Assembly (NCBI GenBank): GCA_018263585.1
Contig: JAANWZ010000044.1
Span: 702-56,955 of the forward strand
Length of the DNA: 56,254 nucleotides
Source: Calditrichota bacterium
GTDB taxonomy: Bacteria > Electryoneota > Electryoneia > Electryoneales > Electryoneaceae
Reading direction: 5' to 3'
The notes under the pieces: generated by a model
The model's input: only the letters and a program-made list of their open reading frames with translations
What the model was told of the DNA's origin: nothing
Database searches by the model: none
Position numbers and translations under genes: made by a program
Part shown: positions 10,441 through 56,254 of the stretch, in pieces
How the letters are laid out: each line of letters opens with the position of its first letter
Numbering within the stretch: position 1 is the first letter of the stretch

Positions 10441-10492
10441 TCCGGCGGTCGCACGTTGCGGGCTGCGGGCGGCGGGCACACACAACCCTTGC

Positions 10493-10558
10493 CCTTGACT
10501 TTAGTCAAGGATAATCAAGAGTTTGGTCCACAACCGATGCCCTTGACTTTAGTCAAGG
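10493..10558. repeat. two copies of the CCTTGACTTTAGTCAAGG palindrome
   Basis: exact 8-bp arms with TT centre at 10493-10510 and 10541-10558. Confidence 0.95.
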
Positions 10559-10574
10559 ATAGTCAGGAGGTTGG

Positions 10575-10890
10575 TCCGGGAGCGCTTGCGAAGATCCGGT
10601 TATGCAGTTAGCTCAGCCACGTGTATGGACCGGACTCTGAAGCACATTCGCGCAGCAGAGGCGTCATTCTGAACCCGGCTTCACGCGTCTGTCTGCGTGA
10701 AGACGGGTGAAGAAGGTCCAGCCTATCCGAGGGTTATGTCACGAGTTTCATTGTATCGTCCACCCTTGTCGAACCTGGACCTTCTTCCCTCAGCCCGACA
10801 AACGGACGTCGGGCTTCGGTCAGAATGACCCCTTTGCCACCCGCGATATTGGTCCCGGCTGAGCCAAAGGGATAACCGGGTGCGACCGAG
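10575..10890 (-). repeat. MITE-like nested inverted-repeat element, degraded copy
   Basis: gcgcttgcgaagatccggttatgc...agctcagccacgtg...gtcattctgaacccgg...gaagaaggtccag...ctggaccttcttcc...gcttcggtcagaatgacc...gctgagccaaagggataaccgg. Confidence 0.85.
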
Positions 10891-10930
10891 CCGGGTGGGC
10901 CGGGCTCGCCCCGGGTTTCACGCTACGCCA

Positions 10931-20589: not shown

Positions 20590-20696
20590 GCCAATCGGTG
20601 ATTGCGAGCGGGTCGGATCCGCGGTGACGCCGTTCGGGACGTCCCCGCGGGCATGTGTCGGGGTGTGCCTGCAACCCGTGGGACGGATGGAACCAC

Positions 20697-21015
20697 GGGG
20701 ACGCTTGCTCGCATCCGGTTATCCCTTTGGCTCAACCGGGAGCAATATCGCGGGAGGCAAGCGTGTCATTCTGACCGAAGCCCGACGTCCGTTTGTCGGG
20801 CGAAAGGAAGAAGGTCCAGGTCCGATAAGAGTGAAGGATACCGTGAAACTCGAGATATGACCCTTGGATAACTTGGACCTTCTTCACCCGCCTTCACGCG
20901 GACAGACGCGTGGAGCCGGGTTCAGGATGACGCCTCTGCCGCCCGGATGTGCTTCAGAGTCCAGTCCAGGCACATGGCTGCGCGAATGGCATAACCGGAT
21001 GCTCGCAAGCGTCCC
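20697..21015 (+). repeat. MITE-like nested inverted-repeat element
   Basis: ggggacgcttgctcgcatccggttat...gctca...tcattctgaccgaag...gaagaaggtccag...ttggaccttcttc...gggttcaggatgac...gcataaccggatgctcgcaagcgtccc. Confidence 0.9.
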
Positions 21016-27270: not shown

Positions 27271-27284
27271 CCACTTACCCTTGC

Positions 27285-27302
27285 CCTTGACTTTAGTCAA
27301 GG
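27285..27302. repeat. CCTTGACTTTAGTCAAGG palindrome
   Basis: exact copy of 10493-10510. Confidence 0.95.
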
Positions 27303-27348
27303 ATAATCAAACGGTTGTCTGGCGAGGTTCGATCACCCGTTGTATGAG

Positions 27349-30056: not shown

Positions 30057-30399
30057 GGGGACGCTTGCGAGCAGCCGGTTGTCCCATTGGCTCAGCCGGG
30101 AGTAGTATCGCGGGCGGCAAAGGAGTCAGTCTGACCGAAGCCCGACGTCCGTTTGTCGGGCGAAGTGAAGTTTATCCTGAACGAAGTGAAGGGAAGGTCC
30201 AGGTTCGACAAGCGTGGAGGATACAATGAAACTGGTGATATAGCCCTTGGATAAGCTGGACCTTCTTCACCCGCCTTCACGCAGACAGACGCGTGAAGGC
30301 GGGTTCAGAATGACGCCTCTGCCGCGCGGATGTGCTTCAGAACCCGGTCCATGCACGTGGCTGAGCTAACGGCATAACCGAATGCGAGCAAGCGTCCCC
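30057..30399 (+). repeat. MITE-like nested inverted-repeat element (343 bp)
   Basis: ggggacgcttgcgagcagccggttgtcccattggctcagcc ... ggctgagctaacggcataaccgaatgcgagcaagcgtcccc. Confidence 0.9.
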
Positions 30400-43217: not shown

Positions 43218-43308
43218 TGCGGCTCTGCGTGCTCGTGCCGGTCCCGGGCGCGTTCCGTGCCCATCTCACGGCCCGGGCCTCCCGCTCGTCGTGTAACCTC
43301 TTGATTAT

Positions 43309-43326
43309 CCTTGACTAAAGTCAAGG
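43309..43326. repeat. CCTTGACTAAAGTCAAGG palindrome (same family, opposite orientation)
   Basis: reverse complement of 27285-27302, also followed by a hinge and other modules (43340-43451). Confidence 0.95.
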
Positions 43327-43574
43327 GCAGGGGTATGAACGGCTCATCCACCGGTCGAATTAACCCTGCGACATCCCGCATTCGCTGCGCTACGGCTGGC
43401 TGTCACAGGGGCACGGGCGAGATGAGACCCGAGGCTGAAGCCCCGGGCCACCAGCCGGCGACCCCGGGCTACTTCTGGCCCCCCAGCTCGCCCGATCTGT
43501 CCCGGCCTGTTGATCCGCGCGCATTTTTTCGTAGATTTGTCTCTTGCAGTGATCGACGAGGGCGGGGCACGGCT

Positions 43575-44660
43575 GTGCCGGACACGCTGATTTCACGCCG
43601 GAAGAGCGAACACCTGCGGGTTGTCGCCGAGCAGGATGTGACGCACAGCGGGAGCACGTTGCTCGAGGACGTGCGTCTGTTTCACGAGGCGCTGCCCGAG
43701 CTCGATTACGACGAACTCCGTCTTTCGACCCCGTTCTTCGGCAGGACGTTGCGGCTGCCGTTCATGATCACGAGCATGACCGGCGGCGCGGAGTACGCGG
43801 ACCGTCTCAACCACGGGCTCGCGCGTGTCGCTGAGCGGACCGGGATCGCGTTCGCGGTCGGTTCGCAACGTGTGATGTTGAACCACCCGGAGCTCGCTGC
43901 GCAGTTCGTGGTCCGCGAGCAGATCCCGACCGGCGTGCTGCTCGGCAACATCGGCGCGGTGCAGTTGATCGAGACGCCTGTCGATACGGTCGCCGGGCTC
44001 GCGAACGCGATCGACGCGGACGGGATCTGCGTGCACCTGAACCCCGCGCAGGAGCTGGTCCAGCTCGCGGGCGACCGCACATTCCGCGGTCTGATCGACG
44101 GGATTTCGCGCTTGCACGAGCGGATGGACGGGCGCGTGCTTGTCAAGGAGACCGGCGGCGGGCTGTCTCCGCAGGCGCTGGAACGTCTGCGCGCGATCGG
44201 CGTGAAGGTTGTGGACGTCGCCGGTGCGGGCGGCACGTCGTGGACGAAGGTCGAGAGCCACCGTGAGGCGAACCGGCAGTTGCAGCGCTCGGGGCGCGTG
44301 TTCGCGGAGTGGGGCGTGCCGACGGCGTTCAGCGTGTATGCGGCGCGCGAGGTTCTCGGTCGCGACGCGACGGTTGTCGCCTCCGGGGGAATCCGATCCG
44401 GTCTCGACGCGGCGCGCGCGATCGCGCTCGGCGCGGACATCGCCGGGTTTGCCCACCCCGTTCTGCTCTCGTTCCTCGACGGCGGCGAGGATTCCGCCGT
44501 ACAATTCATCGAAACTCTGGCCCACGAGTTGAAGATGGCGATGCTGCTCACCGGAACCGCCGACGTTTCGGCGCTGAAGCGGGCGCCGCGCGTGATCGAA
44601 GGTCGCCTCAGGCGCCTGATCGACGCACACCCGTGGCACGTGGAGAAGGATCGTGGTTGA
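43575..44660 (+). CDS. fni: type 2 isopentenyl-diphosphate delta-isomerase (FMN-dependent)
   Basis: GTG start; SRRKSEHLRVV; PFMITSMTGGAEYADRLN; FAVGSQRVML; VKETGGGLSPQ; DVAGAGGTSWTKVE. Confidence 0.93.
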   Translation: MPDTLISRRKSEHLRVVAEQDVTHSGSTLLEDVRLFHEALPELDYDELRLSTPFFGRTLRLPFMITSMTGGAEYADRLNHGLARVAERTGIAFAVGSQRVMLNHPELAAQFVVREQIPTGVLLGNIGAVQLIETPVDTVAGLANAIDADGICVHLNPAQELVQLAGDRTFRGLIDGISRLHERMDGRVLVKETGGGLSPQALERLRAIGVKVVDVAGAGGTSWTKVESHREANRQLQRSGRVFAEWGVPTAFSVYAAREVLGRDATVVASGGIRSGLDAARAIALGADIAGFAHPVLLSFLDGGEDSAVQFIETLAHELKMAMLLTGTADVSALKRAPRVIEGRLRRLIDAHPWHVEKDRG

Positions 44661-47001
44661 CAACAGTGAGCTGTTTCGCGGCGGCCGCAACGGGATCACC
44701 CGCCCGGCGGCACCGTCACGGCCGGTCGCGCAGAAGCAGGAATCCGTATCGTCGCGCATTCCCGGGTTCTACCGTCTCCCGGTGGAGCGCCGGCTCGCGT
44801 TTCTCCAGCGCAGTTTCGGGCTGAGTGACAAGCAGATCGGTGCGCTGCGCGAGGGCCGCACGCTGCGCATCGAGCACGCGGTGAACATGGTGGAGAACGC
44901 GATCGGCGTGCATGGGATGCCGCTCGGGGTCGCGCTCAACTTCCTCGTCGATCGCCGCGACTACCTCGTGCCGATGGCGATCGAGGAGGCGTCGATCATC
45001 GCGGCCGCGTCGAAGGCGGCGCTCACGATCCGCAAGGGCGGCGGGTTCACCACCGAGGTCGATGACCCGGTGATGATCGGGCAGGTGCAGGTGCTCGAGC
45101 TCGCCGACGCGGACGCGGCGCGGGAAAAGGTGCTGCGCGAAAAGCATGCGATCCTGCGGCAGGCGAACCTCGTGAGCCCGAAGATGGTCGCGCGCGGCGG
45201 CGGTGCGATCGATATCGAGGCGCGCGTCGTGGACGGCGGCGGCGACACCGGCCGGATGCTGATCGTGCACCTGCTCATCGACGTACGCGAGGCGATGGGC
45301 GCGAACCATGTGAACACGTCGTGCGAAGCGGTCGGGCCGCTGATCGAGCGGATCAGTGGCGGCCGGGTTCACCTGCGCATTCTCTCGAACTTCGCCGACC
45401 GCCGGCTCGCGCGCGCAACGTTTTCGCTGCCGTTTGCACAGCTCGCGTCCGACGGATTCACCGGGGAGGATGTCGCGCGGCGGATGGTTGACGCGTACCG
45501 GATGGCGTGGGCGGACGCGTACCGCGCGACGACTCACAACAAGGGGATCTTCAACGGGATCGGGGCGGCGGCGATGGCGCTCGGGCAGGACTGGCGGGCG
45601 ATCGACGCCGGCGGGCACGCGTGGGCTGCGCGCGACGGCCACTACCGCAGCCTCACCCGTTACTGGATCGAGGACGGCGCGCTGCACGGTTCGATCGAAC
45701 TGCCGATGCAGGTCGGCGCGGTCGGCGGCGCGCTCAACAGCCACCCCGGCGTGCGCCTGCTCCGTGAAGTCGCCGGCGTTTCCAGCGCGCGCGAAATCGC
45801 CGGCCTGTTCGCCGCCGTCGGACTCGCGCAGAACTTCGCAGCGTGCAACGCGCTGAGCACGGTCGGGATCCAGGAGGGGCACATGGCGCTGCACGCGCGT
45901 TCTGTCGCGATCAGCGTCGGCGTCCCGCCCGACAAGGTCGAGCAGGTCGCGCAGGAGATGATCGGCCGCGGGCAGGTGAAGGTGGCCGTCGCAGAGGAGA
46001 TCTTCAACCGTATCCTCCAGCACGAGCGCGAGATGGACACGGAATCGCAGGACGGGTTGCCGATCGACGCGTGGGCGCCGGGCAAGGTCGTGCTGTTCGG
46101 GGAGCACGCGACGGTTTACAACTACCCGGGGATCACGTGCGCGATCAACGTCGGGCTCCGGATCCGTGTCACCCGCGACGCGGACGGCCCGCGCTTCGTG
46201 AGCCCGCGGTTCAACCAGCCGTTCGGCGCGCCGGAGTCGGACCGCGACATCCGCATGTTCACGCGCGCCGTCGATCAGGCGCTCGACATCTACGCGCTCC
46301 AGCGCGACCCGATCGCGGTCGAGATCGATTCCGACCTCGTGCCGGGGATGGGGCTCGGATCGTCGGCGGCGTTCTCGGCGGCGCTCTGTTCCGCGTTGCG
46401 CACGTACCGCGACGGGAGCGGCGAGATCAGCCTCGCGCGCGACCTGTTCGACGACGTGCAGCGTCTCGAGAGCATCTTCCACGGCCACCCGAGCGGGATG
46501 GACGCGGCGACGGTGATCTCCGACGGCGTGCTCTGGTTCCGCAAGGGACCGCCGCGCGAAATCGTGCCGATCCACATGCCGCACCCGATGTACGGCCTGA
46601 TCTGCTTCGTCTCGCCGGGCGCGCGCACGATCGACATGGTGCGCAACGTGACGCAGAGCCGTGACCTCAACCCGAAACGCGTGGACAGCCTGCTCGAACA
46701 GATCGGCGAGCTGACGAGCGACGCGGGGATCGCGCTCGGCACCGGCGACAACCGCGAGGTCGGCCGGCTCATGCTGCGCAACCACGAGCTGCTCGCGCGC
46801 CTCGGTGTGTCCACGCGCGAGCTCGACAACGCGATCGAATTTCTGATGGAACGCGGCGTGCTCGGCGCGAAACTGACCGGCAGCGGCGGCGGCGGAGCCG
46901 TGATCGCGATCGTCCGCCCCGAGGACCAGGATACGCTCGTGCACGAGCTCGCCGACCGGTTCGCGCGCGTGTATCCGTTCACCGTGAGGTCGAGGGAATG
47001 A
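44653..47001 (+). CDS. fused class II HMG-CoA reductase - mevalonate kinase
   Basis: N-half: VENAIGVHGMPLGVALNFLV, HNKGIFNGIGAAAMALGQDWRAI, EGHMALHARSVA; C-half: APGKVVLFGEHATVYNYPGI, GMGLGSSAAFSAALCSAL, HGHPSGMDAAT, LTGSGGGGAVIA; one uninterrupted 782-aa ORF. Confidence 0.93.
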   Translation: MVDNSELFRGGRNGITRPAAPSRPVAQKQESVSSRIPGFYRLPVERRLAFLQRSFGLSDKQIGALREGRTLRIEHAVNMVENAIGVHGMPLGVALNFLVDRRDYLVPMAIEEASIIAAASKAALTIRKGGGFTTEVDDPVMIGQVQVLELADADAAREKVLREKHAILRQANLVSPKMVARGGGAIDIEARVVDGGGDTGRMLIVHLLIDVREAMGANHVNTSCEAVGPLIERISGGRVHLRILSNFADRRLARATFSLPFAQLASDGFTGEDVARRMVDAYRMAWADAYRATTHNKGIFNGIGAAAMALGQDWRAIDAGGHAWAARDGHYRSLTRYWIEDGALHGSIELPMQVGAVGGALNSHPGVRLLREVAGVSSAREIAGLFAAVGLAQNFAACNALSTVGIQEGHMALHARSVAISVGVPPDKVEQVAQEMIGRGQVKVAVAEEIFNRILQHEREMDTESQDGLPIDAWAPGKVVLFGEHATVYNYPGITCAINVGLRIRVTRDADGPRFVSPRFNQPFGAPESDRDIRMFTRAVDQALDIYALQRDPIAVEIDSDLVPGMGLGSSAAFSAALCSALRTYRDGSGEISLARDLFDDVQRLESIFHGHPSGMDAATVISDGVLWFRKGPPREIVPIHMPHPMYGLICFVSPGARTIDMVRNVTQSRDLNPKRVDSLLEQIGELTSDAGIALGTGDNREVGRLMLRNHELLARLGVSTRELDNAIEFLMERGVLGAKLTGSGGGGAVIAIVRPEDQDTLVHELADRFARVYPFTVRSRE

Positions 47002-47981
47002 CGCGGCGGGTGACAGCGCGCGCGTGCGCGAACATCGCCCTCGTCAAGTACTGGGGCAAACGCGATGAGCGCCGCAACACGCCGGCGACGCCCTCGATCT
47101 CGCTCGCCCTCTCCGGCCTCACGACAACGACCACGGTCGAACGGTTCGGTGACGATCCGAGCGAGATGCCCGATCACGTTGAACTGAACGGCGATGCGGC
47201 CCGGGGTGATTCCGGCGCGCGTGTCGCCGGATATATCTCGCTGTGGCGCGACCTCGGCCTGATCGACGGCGCGTACGCCGTCTATTCGCAGAACGATTTT
47301 CCGACCGGGACCGGGCTCGCCTCGAGCTCGTCCGGATTCGCCGCGCTCGCCGCCGCGCTCGCCGAGTTCAGCGAGCAGAAGTTGAACGCGGTCAATCTGT
47401 CGCGGCTCGCGCGCCGGGGCAGCGGGTCGGCGGCGCGTTCGATCGCCGGCGGAATCGCCGCGCTCCCTTCCACCTCCGACCCCGCCGCGCGACGGCTCGT
47501 CGAACCGAACGACGTGCCGTGGGGGATGGTCGTCGCGATCGTGGAAACCGCCCCGAAAACCGTCGGCTCAACCGAGGGGATGAACCTGAGCCGCTCGACG
47601 AGTCCGTATTACGGGAGCTGGGTGACGATCGCGAAACACGACTACCGCGCGATGCTGTCCGCGATCCGCGACCGCGACCTCGTTCGTACCGGTGAGCTCG
47701 CCGAGTCGAACTGTTACGCGATGCAGGCGTGCATGCTCACCACCCACCCGCCGCTGTTGTACTGGAACGAAGTGACGACCCGCCTGATGCGCCGGGTGCT
47801 CGCGTGGCGACGGGAAGGGGTGCGTGTGTACGCGACCGCCGACGCCGGCCCGCATGTCTGTTTCCTCGCGGACCGCGCCGATCTGGACGCGCTCGCCGGG
47901 AAAGCCGCCTCGGTCGAGGGCGTCACCGATGTCAACGTCAGCCTGCCCGGAGCGCCCGCCGAAGTCGTGTCGAAGGAATGA
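46998..47981 (+). CDS. mvaD: diphosphomevalonate decarboxylase
   Basis: ANIALVKYWGKRDERRNTPATPSISLALSGL; GLASSSSGFAAL; RRGSGSAARSIAGG. Confidence 0.94.
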   Translation: MTRRVTARACANIALVKYWGKRDERRNTPATPSISLALSGLTTTTTVERFGDDPSEMPDHVELNGDAARGDSGARVAGYISLWRDLGLIDGAYAVYSQNDFPTGTGLASSSSGFAALAAALAEFSEQKLNAVNLSRLARRGSGSAARSIAGGIAALPSTSDPAARRLVEPNDVPWGMVVAIVETAPKTVGSTEGMNLSRSTSPYYGSWVTIAKHDYRAMLSAIRDRDLVRTGELAESNCYAMQACMLTTHPPLLYWNEVTTRLMRRVLAWRREGVRVYATADAGPHVCFLADRADLDALAGKAASVEGVTDVNVSLPGAPAEVVSKE

Positions 47982-48904
47982 ACTCCGTGCGCATCCCGGG
48001 CAAAGTGATGCTCTCCGGCGAGTACATCGTGCTGTTCGGCGGAAGCGCCGTGCTCGTGCCCGCCCCCCGCACCCTCACCGTGTCCGAAGCCGCCACGCCG
48101 ACTCCCGACACGGTCAACCCTGTGGTTCGTGAGGCGCTCGCGGAACCGATCGCGGAGATCGTGGAAGCGGAGAAGGAACTGCCTGACCTGCACGTGGCCG
48201 TCGATCGCGGCGAATTCTACGCGACCACGCCGGCGGGTTCAGCGGCGAAGCTCGGACTCGGCGGGTCCGCGGCGGAAGCGGTCGGCGTCGTCTCCCTGCG
48301 GCTGATACGGGCCGGAATCGATCCGATCGAGAACCCCCGGCTCGTGTTCGACGTCGCCGACCGCGCCCACCGCCGCGCGCAGGGAGGGGTGGGCAGCGGC
48401 GCCGATGTCGCCGCGTGCGCGTACCGGCGGCCGATCCGGTTCAGGCGATCCAACGACGAGGTTGAGATCGAGCCGATCGCAAGGCCCGCACACTCTGACA
48501 TTCCGCAGCTCGCGCTCGCGTGGACCGGGGTCCCGGCCGACACGCGCCGGTTGGTAAAGCCGTTCCTCGAATGGGCCGCCACGGGCAAGCACGCCGCGAT
48601 CCGGTTGGGCAACCTCGACCTCACGGCCGGCCTGCTGGCCACGGCCTGGTTTGCGGCCGGCAGGCGCCTGCTCAACACCTTGCTCGACGAGTTCGACAAG
48701 GCGCTCGCCGAGTTGATGCAATCGGCCGAGCTTGACTGGCGGCTGCCGGTTCATGATGAGCTCGCGGCCTGGGCGCGCGCTCACGGCGGCCGGGCAAAAC
48801 CGGCCGGCGCCGGCGGCGGCGACCTCGCGCTGCTCGTCGGCCCACTCCCGCTCGCCGAACGGCCTGAGCTGATCATACCGCTCACTCCATTTGACATTGA
48901 CTGA
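47978..48904 (+). CDS. GHMP kinase, probable phosphomevalonate kinase
   Basis: RIPGKVMLSGEYIVLFGGSAVLVP; KLGLGGSAAEAVGVV; GGVGSGADVAA; ATGA overlap with mvaD; operon context. Confidence 0.85.
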   Translation: MNSVRIPGKVMLSGEYIVLFGGSAVLVPAPRTLTVSEAATPTPDTVNPVVREALAEPIAEIVEAEKELPDLHVAVDRGEFYATTPAGSAAKLGLGGSAAEAVGVVSLRLIRAGIDPIENPRLVFDVADRAHRRAQGGVGSGADVAACAYRRPIRFRRSNDEVEIEPIARPAHSDIPQLALAWTGVPADTRRLVKPFLEWAATGKHAAIRLGNLDLTAGLLATAWFAAGRRLLNTLLDEFDKALAELMQSAELDWRLPVHDELAAWARAHGGRAKPAGAGGGDLALLVGPLPLAERPELIIPLTPFDID

Positions 48905-49198: not shown

Positions 49199-49780
49199 TT
49201 GATGAATGCGAGACTGACAGTTGTATTGTTCGTCGCGGCCGCGCTGCTGGTCGGCTGCGGCGGCGGTGAACAGGCCGAGGAAATGGCGCAGGAGACCGGC
49301 GAAAGTGTGGAGCAGGCCGCCGGCGAACAGCAGGCCGCCGGCGAACAGCAGGCCGCCGGCGAACAGCAGGCCGCCGGCGAACAGCAGGCCGGGGAGATGT
49401 CGGACGAGATGGCGATGCCGGATCTCGAGGAGATGATGTTCGCGCAGGGCCCGCAGGGGATGAAATACGCGGTGCTGCAGGAGGGCGACGGCCCGGAGAT
49501 CGACAACGGTGACCTGGCGAAAGTCCACTACACGGGCTGGTTCGAGAGCAGCGGCAACCTGTTCGAAAGTTCGCGCAAGCGGGACAAGCCGTTCGAGTTC
49601 ACAGTCGGCTCCGGCCAGGTGATCAAGGGCTGGGATCTCGGAGTCGCGGAGATGCGCGTCGGCGAGCGCCGCCTGATCGTGCTCCCGCCGGAACTCGCGT
49701 ACGGCGAGCGCGGCTATCCCGGCGGCATCCCGCCGAACAGCACGCTCGTGTTCGATGTGGAAGTGCTCGGCAAGGAGTAG
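49199..49780 (+). CDS. FKBP-type peptidyl-prolyl isomerase lipoprotein
   Basis: lipobox LLVGC; KVHYTGWFESSGNLFESSRKRDKPFEFTVGSGQVIKGWDLGV; LAYGERGYPGGIPPNSTLVFDVE. Confidence 0.93.
   Translation: MMNARLTVVLFVAAALLVGCGGGEQAEEMAQETGESVEQAAGEQQAAGEQQAAGEQQAAGEQQAGEMSDEMAMPDLEEMMFAQGPQGMKYAVLQEGDGPEIDNGDLAKVHYTGWFESSGNLFESSRKRDKPFEFTVGSGQVIKGWDLGVAEMRVGERRLIVLPPELAYGERGYPGGIPPNSTLVFDVEVLGKE
49313..49390 (+). repeat. 18-bp coding tandem repeat (4 units plus 6 bp)
   Basis: (caggccgccggcgaacag)x4 + caggcc, encoding (QAAGEQ)n. Confidence 0.95.
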
Positions 49781-51802: not shown

Positions 51803-52017
51803 GCAGCCCTCATCCCTCGCGGGTGTTACGAAAAACACCGGCCGCGCGTTCCGCAACCGATGTTCCGCTCCTGATTCGCGCGCCGGTCGGATCAACCGCG
51901 CGGGCGGCAAAGAACAGCTTCTGCCGAGCCGCGGTGACGGCCTTCGGCGCGTCCCCGCGGGCATGGCAAGCAATGTGCCCCTGTGACAGCGCGCAGCGAT
52001 GTCGCAGGGCTCGCTGC

Positions 52018-52337
52018 GGGGACGCTTGCGAGCATCCGGTCATCCCCTTGGCTCAGCCGGGACAAGTATCGCGGGTGGCAAAGGAGTCATTCTGACCGAA
52101 GCCCGACGTCCGTTTGTCGGGCGAAGGGAAGAAGGTCCGAGTTCAACAAGGGTAGAGGGTATAATGAAACTCGAAAAACAGCCATTTGGTAAGCTGGACC
52201 TTCTTCACCCGCCTTCACGCAGACAGACGCGTGAAGCCGGGTTCAGAATGACTCCTCTGCCTCCCGAATGCGCTTCAGAATCCGGTCCATGCACGTGGCT
52301 GAGCGAACGGCATAACCGAATGCGAGCAAGCGTCCCC
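52018..52337 (+). repeat. MITE-like nested inverted-repeat element
   Basis: ggggacgcttgcgagcatccggtcat...ggctcagcc ... ggctgagcgaacggcataaccgaatgcgagcaagcgtcccc; abuts another module at 51975-52011. Confidence 0.9.
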
Positions 52338-56080: not shown

Positions 56081-56254
56081 CATGCCCGCGGGGACGGGCC
56101 GCAGGCCGTCACCGCGGCTGATACAACGGAGCATGAGACCCGAGGCTGAAGCCCCGGGCCACCCATTCTCTTGACTTACCTTGTGATTATCCTTGACTAA
56201 AGTCAAGGGCAAGTCTGTACAGGCCCGCGGTTGCTCGCAACCGCGGCTGATACA
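56081..56254. repeat. four-module intergenic mosaic downstream of trxB
   Basis: 56081-56120 CATGCCCGCGGGG..ACCGCGG module; 56133-56162 ATGAGACCCGAGGCTGAAGCCCCGGGCCAC; 56191-56208 CCTTGACTAAAGTCAAGG; 56224-56246 CCCGCGGTTGCTCGCAACCGCGG. Confidence 0.9.

Follow-up and report, generated by a model that had tools for sequence, protein, structure and literature searches.

A single open reading frame that appears to hold two consecutive enzymes of the mevalonate pathway, an HMG-CoA reductase (HMGR) and a mevalonate kinase (MK), raises the question of whether such a fusion is a genuine gene and, if so, what its product would do. The frame lies in a window of 56,254 nucleotides, the whole stretch of DNA that was analysed. 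The initial annotation had read both enzymes from one ORF, and the 782-aa frame and its Pfam and NCBIfam matches agreed with this reading. The fusion gene is made up as follows.

44653–47001, forward strand: HMGR-MK fusion gene, an intact single frame of 782 aa with a GTG start and GGAGAAGG upstream
44752–46017, forward strand: class II HMG-CoA reductase domain, residues 34–455 (TIGR00532, PF00368, catalytic residues aligned to 1qax)
46018–46062, forward strand: linker, about residues 456–470 (family alignment, lengths)
46033–46035, forward strand: in-frame ATG in the linker, residue 461, a proposed internal start that is not conserved
46063–46998, forward strand: mevalonate kinase domain, residues 471–782 (TIGR00549, PDB mevalonate kinases)

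The fusion is a real and conserved gene

Searching NCBIfam with the 782-aa protein returned two separate models only, one for HMGR and one for MK. Within its own genome the fusion matched this gene alone, and a second HMGR or MK match was also absent. An assembly error or a frameshift might have merged two separate genes, and the window does stem from a draft genome (165 contigs, 2.85 Mb, estimated 92% complete). However, the junction at 46020–46070, where a stop or a frameshift would have counted against the initial annotation, was open and free of both, and the same open junction was found in independent genomes at 62–79% identity. It recurs among members of the family and also in another phylum. 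Because independent genomes have the same junction, the artefact reading was ruled out and keeps practically no probability. The HMGR-MK fusion is confirmed as real and conserved, since it is shared by a Zixibacteria family and by much of a proteobacterial order.

The N-terminal half matches class II HMGRs with an atypical cofactor helix

Sequence comparison identifies the N-terminal half as a class II HMGR. HMG-CoA_red (PF00368) matched residues 44–415 with 331 bits, and TIGR00532 scored 363 bits against a cut-off of 260. Class II enzymes were nearer than class I: E-values were 1e-105 or better to Pseudomonas mevalonii, Delftia and similar enzymes, and about 1e-4 to 1dq8/2q1l. The half had been described as catalytically complete, and the residues bear this out: K297 (HNK) and D313 (GQD) are spaced 16 residues apart, and when the half is aligned to PDB 1qax, E112, K297, D313 and H410 fall on E83, K267, D283 and H381 of the P. 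mevalonii enzyme. The catalytic role of these four P. mevalonii residues is established. The class II HMGRs of P. mevalonii and Delftia acidovorans (1qax, 6dio) have the fold and catalytic residues in common with the window's HMGR, at 45–48% identity, but they are single-domain, NADH-type enzymes, whereas the window's HMGR is fused and lies in a biosynthetic operon.

The cofactor helix differs as well. Two motifs have been published, Dx(V/L)xxxL for NADH and (H/Y)xSxxxR for NADPH, together with an 'undefined' group, marked by Arg at position 7, for which dual cofactor use was proposed (PMC13370337). An Asp-to-Lys change, D154K, gave the Ruegeria HMGR strong NADPH use (PMC12292504). The window's helix, SPKMVAR, fits neither published motif exactly: it is without the NADH-type Asp and Leu, carries Arg at position 7, and has Ser where the NADH-type enzymes (1qax, 6dio) have Asp146. 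Helices of other Zixibacteria were mostly NPRMVxR-like, with one HPRMVAR, and in the proteobacterial fusions HPNMVAR and HPRMVAR predominate. Among the stand-alone HMGRs compared, from Chloroflexi and archaea, position 1 is D and position 7 is L. The residues at positions 1 and 7 therefore make NADPH or dual cofactor use likely, which is consistent with biosynthesis.

The C-terminal half carries the signature of a mevalonate kinase

Pfam placed GHMP_kinases_N at residues 547–623 and GHMP_kinases_C at 694–770, and TIGR00549, the NCBIfam mevalonate kinase model, scored 200 bits against a cut-off of 163. All GHMP motifs had been reported for this half, and PGKVVLFGEHATVYN, PGMGLGSSAA, LESIFHGHPSGMD and KLTGSGGGG were indeed read in the sequence. 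The active-site residues K478, S570/S571, E606 and D617 sit within GHMP motifs, and the family alignment shows no variation at any of them; the 11-residue spacing of E606 and D617 is that of Glu193 and Asp204 in rat mevalonate kinase. Stand-alone mevalonate kinases (2hfu, 6mdf, 2oi2) share the GHMP fold and motifs at about 24–29% identity, but are separate proteins. The C-terminal half is thus a predicted mevalonate kinase, with the family cut-off and the operon backing mevalonate as its substrate.

The fusion lies in a mevalonate operon of a family without dxr

Three further genes overlap one another or the fusion.

43575–44660, forward strand: type-2 isopentenyl-diphosphate (IPP) isomerase (TIGR02151, 369 bits), with a start codon and an 8-nt overlap with the fusion
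46998–47981, forward strand: diphosphomevalonate decarboxylase (TIGR01240, 227 bits), 4-nt overlap with the fusion (ATGA)
47978–48904, forward strand: GHMP kinase, probable phosphomevalonate kinase (weak PMK/MK matches below cut-off), 4-nt overlap with the decarboxylase (ATGA)

The operon thus runs from the type-2 IPP isomerase through the fusion and the decarboxylase to the probable phosphomevalonate kinase, with overlaps of 8, 4 and 4 nt, and direct reading of two relatives, L002 and L005, gave the same isomerase-fusion-decarboxylase order. The last gene is probably a phosphomevalonate kinase, an assignment made partly from its position; its best PMK/MK scores, about 42 bits, fall below the cut-offs. 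HMGS, HMGR, MK, decarboxylase and isomerase were all over their cut-offs in the window's own genome and PMK was matched weakly; this weak phosphomevalonate kinase match leaves the lower pathway short of full proof.

The HMGS model PF08540 had no match in any of 39 genomes. The gap that this suggested was removed when the window's own genome gave a strong match to TIGR00748, the archaeal-type HMG-CoA synthase model (494 bits, cut-off 353), with a thiolase-like gene next to it. Six of the seven family genomes have this synthase over the cut-off. None of the seven has dxr, the MEP pathway marker, which exceeded its cut-off in 30 of the 32 other genomes of the phylum. Given the absence of dxr, the fusion and the archaeal-type HMGS, IPP in this family appears to come from a mevalonate pathway that uses archaeal-type HMGS and the fused class II HMGR-MK. 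Archaeal-type HMGS also occurs in Zixibacteria families that have dxr and are without an HMGR match, so there it may serve something besides mevalonate (loci L148–L151 and L153; genomes G010, G012, G007, G014 and the window's own, G000). A thiolase-like gene follows it at the loci where this was read (L149, L153).

Collectively, these assignments point very strongly to a bifunctional biosynthetic enzyme that would carry HMG-CoA to mevalonate and on to mevalonate-5-phosphate on one chain. At its N-terminal class II HMGR, two NAD(P)H would be spent on reducing HMG-CoA to mevalonate, which its C-terminal MK would phosphorylate with ATP to mevalonate-5-phosphate. Both domains come from one cistron, whose operon also contains the overlapping genes for the isomerase, the decarboxylase and the probable phosphomevalonate kinase, so that reduction and phosphorylation would be made 1:1; the putative benefit is this 1:1 supply of reduction and of a phosphorylation that pulls it. 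The activity of both halves and the biosynthetic direction are predicted from sequence. A degradative enzyme, in which HMGR would run from mevalonate to HMG-CoA, is what the name 'degradative' of the top NCBIfam model and the 45–48% identity to catabolic enzymes would suggest. This role is contradicted by the biosynthetic operon, the genome without dxr and the non-NADH cofactor helix, and a fused MK would compete for mevalonate; we regard it as highly improbable.

The two domains are joined by a variable linker

AlphaFold modelled the fusion as two separate, confidently folded domains of uncertain relative placement (mean pLDDT 85.3, pTM 0.58). Foldseek matched the model to the P. mevalonii and Delftia HMGRs (45–49% identity) and to mevalonate kinases (24–29%). 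In the model, a helix at residues 444–465 connects the C-terminal part of HMGR to MK. The C-terminal part of class II HMGRs, with its catalytic His, is known to move during catalysis. As this helix leads from that part to the kinase, MK would hang on the moving flap region that bears the catalytic H410.

The linker (about 456–470) varies in both sequence and length among relatives. A free MK had been proposed to start at its ATG at 46033, which would yield two products, the full fusion and the kinase alone. The ATG is in frame; however, the aligned relatives have no Met at this position and the upstream ribosome site is weak, and an internal start there was rejected as very unlikely.

Two views of how the halves of the bifunctional enzyme work together were considered. 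In the first, our default reading and one that we moderately favour, fusion is a simple tether: it would ensure equal expression only, and mevalonate would diffuse freely with no kinetic coupling. The variable linker, the domain arrangement predicted without confidence and the unfused adjacent pairs of other phyla all fit this version of the best explanation; against it, nearly all HMGR-bearing genomes of the two groups keep the fusion, which suggests some benefit and is no proof of coupling. The second view is channelling, with a kinase on the reductase's moving flap that would hand mevalonate directly to the second site. The modelled position of MK, directly after the C-terminal part with H410 via helix 444–465, is compatible with this, but the linker is not conserved, and we consider channelling unlikely.

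The fusion occurs in two unrelated groups and excludes dxr in both

All seven sampled genomes of the window's family, in six genera, have the fusion; the named relatives are Zixibacteria. HMGR had no match in other families among the sampled genomes of the phylum. Scanning of genome contigs with frame checks revealed four further intact Zixibacteria loci (L026, L027, L028 and L060) and two, L029 and L030, in which the fusion runs off the contig end. L030 stands in a record named Planctomycetales: its fusion, about 64% identical to the window's, is cut by the contig end, and a different contig of the genome holds the remainder of MK; L030 is probably a misnamed or mis-binned Zixibacteria contig. 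A search of plasmids gave no full-length fusion match, the best matches spanning the HMGR part only.

The scan also found the fusion in two proteobacterial records, one named Rhodospirillaceae (L031) and one named Gammaproteobacteria (L033). Both were placed in one order, where 95 of 147 sampled genomes gave a near-full-length fusion match; several of the remaining positives are fragments. Here dxr was over cut-off in 42 of 144 genomes, none of which has the fusion. In both groups dxr and the fusion are mutually exclusive, dxr occurring only where the fusion is absent. The proteobacterial gene order is squalene/phytoene synthase-like, decarboxylase, phosphomevalonate kinase-like, fusion and type-1 isomerase; the opposite strand carries an HMGS with affinity to the bacterial type. 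One proteobacterial locus, L167 (genome G097), has HMGR and MK in different frames while its close relatives are fused, and looks like a frameshift in that record.

Frame checks found adjacent, unfused HMGR and MK genes in Binatota, Sericytochromatia, Lentibacillus and Alicyclobacillus records; MK directly follows HMGR, as in the fusion, but in a second reading frame. Such a pair is a plausible forerunner of the fusion. Unconstrained maximum-likelihood trees of MK, of HMGR and of both joined set the Zixibacteria and proteobacterial fusions apart, and in all three unfused sequences were nearer the Zixibacteria fusion clade. In AU tests, one clade of all fusions was not rejected (p 0.27 for HMGR, 0.29 for MK and 0.23 for the joined data). 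The differing gene order, isomerase type and HMGS type lean towards two origins, but a single origin followed by transfer may also account for the pattern. The fuller scenario of at least two fusion origins from adjacent pairs, each in a lineage with the mevalonate route instead of MEP, combined with channelling by a kinase on the moving flap, seems quite unlikely.

Other features of the window

An interspersed repeat of about 300 nt is present in four copies in both orientations, 65–89% alike (10578–10891, 20696–20995, 30079–30378 and 52017–52316). Short near-identical units around the palindrome CCTTGACTTTAGTCAAGG occur at 10485–10572, 27276–27316, 43295–43335 and 56173–56213, and one of these lies a short way before the mevalonate operon. 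The ORF at 49199–49780 has a C-terminal end that resembles an FKBP-type isomerase and, in its N-terminal part, a perfect 18-nt tandem repeat of 4.5 copies.

Discussion

The closest known parallel is MvaE of Enterococcus and relatives, an acetoacetyl-CoA thiolase fused to a class II HMGR and hence also an HMGR joined to an enzyme of the same pathway. The contrast drawn with it by the initial annotation holds: in MvaE the thiolase is N-terminal to HMGR, whereas the window's fusion has the downstream kinase at its C-terminus, and Pfam found no thiolase domain in the 782-aa protein. The openly accessible full-text literature searched contained no description of an HMGR-MK fusion; none appeared in the passages searched of a 2026 review of bacterial isoprenoid pathways, and the words mevalonate kinase are absent from the text of a 2026 survey of bacterial HMGRs. 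The architecture is built from two well-known enzymes and the fusion itself is apparently undescribed in the literature searched, though it may already be known. The fusion is no one-off, being family-wide in the Zixibacteria lineage and widespread in the proteobacterial order.

With the HMGR-MK fusion, HMGR is seen joined to a pathway enzyme in a second natural arrangement, beside MvaE, and in this one the flux-controlling reduction would be coupled to the step by which its product is consumed. Labelled by the best-scoring model only, as 'HMG-CoA reductase, degradative', these proteins would have both their kinase and their biosynthetic role masked. For isoprenoid engineering, the fusions may be a source of natural bifunctional enzymes. 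The strict either-or of dxr and fusion in two unrelated groups provides a clean setting in which to study how the mevalonate pathway takes the place of the MEP pathway.
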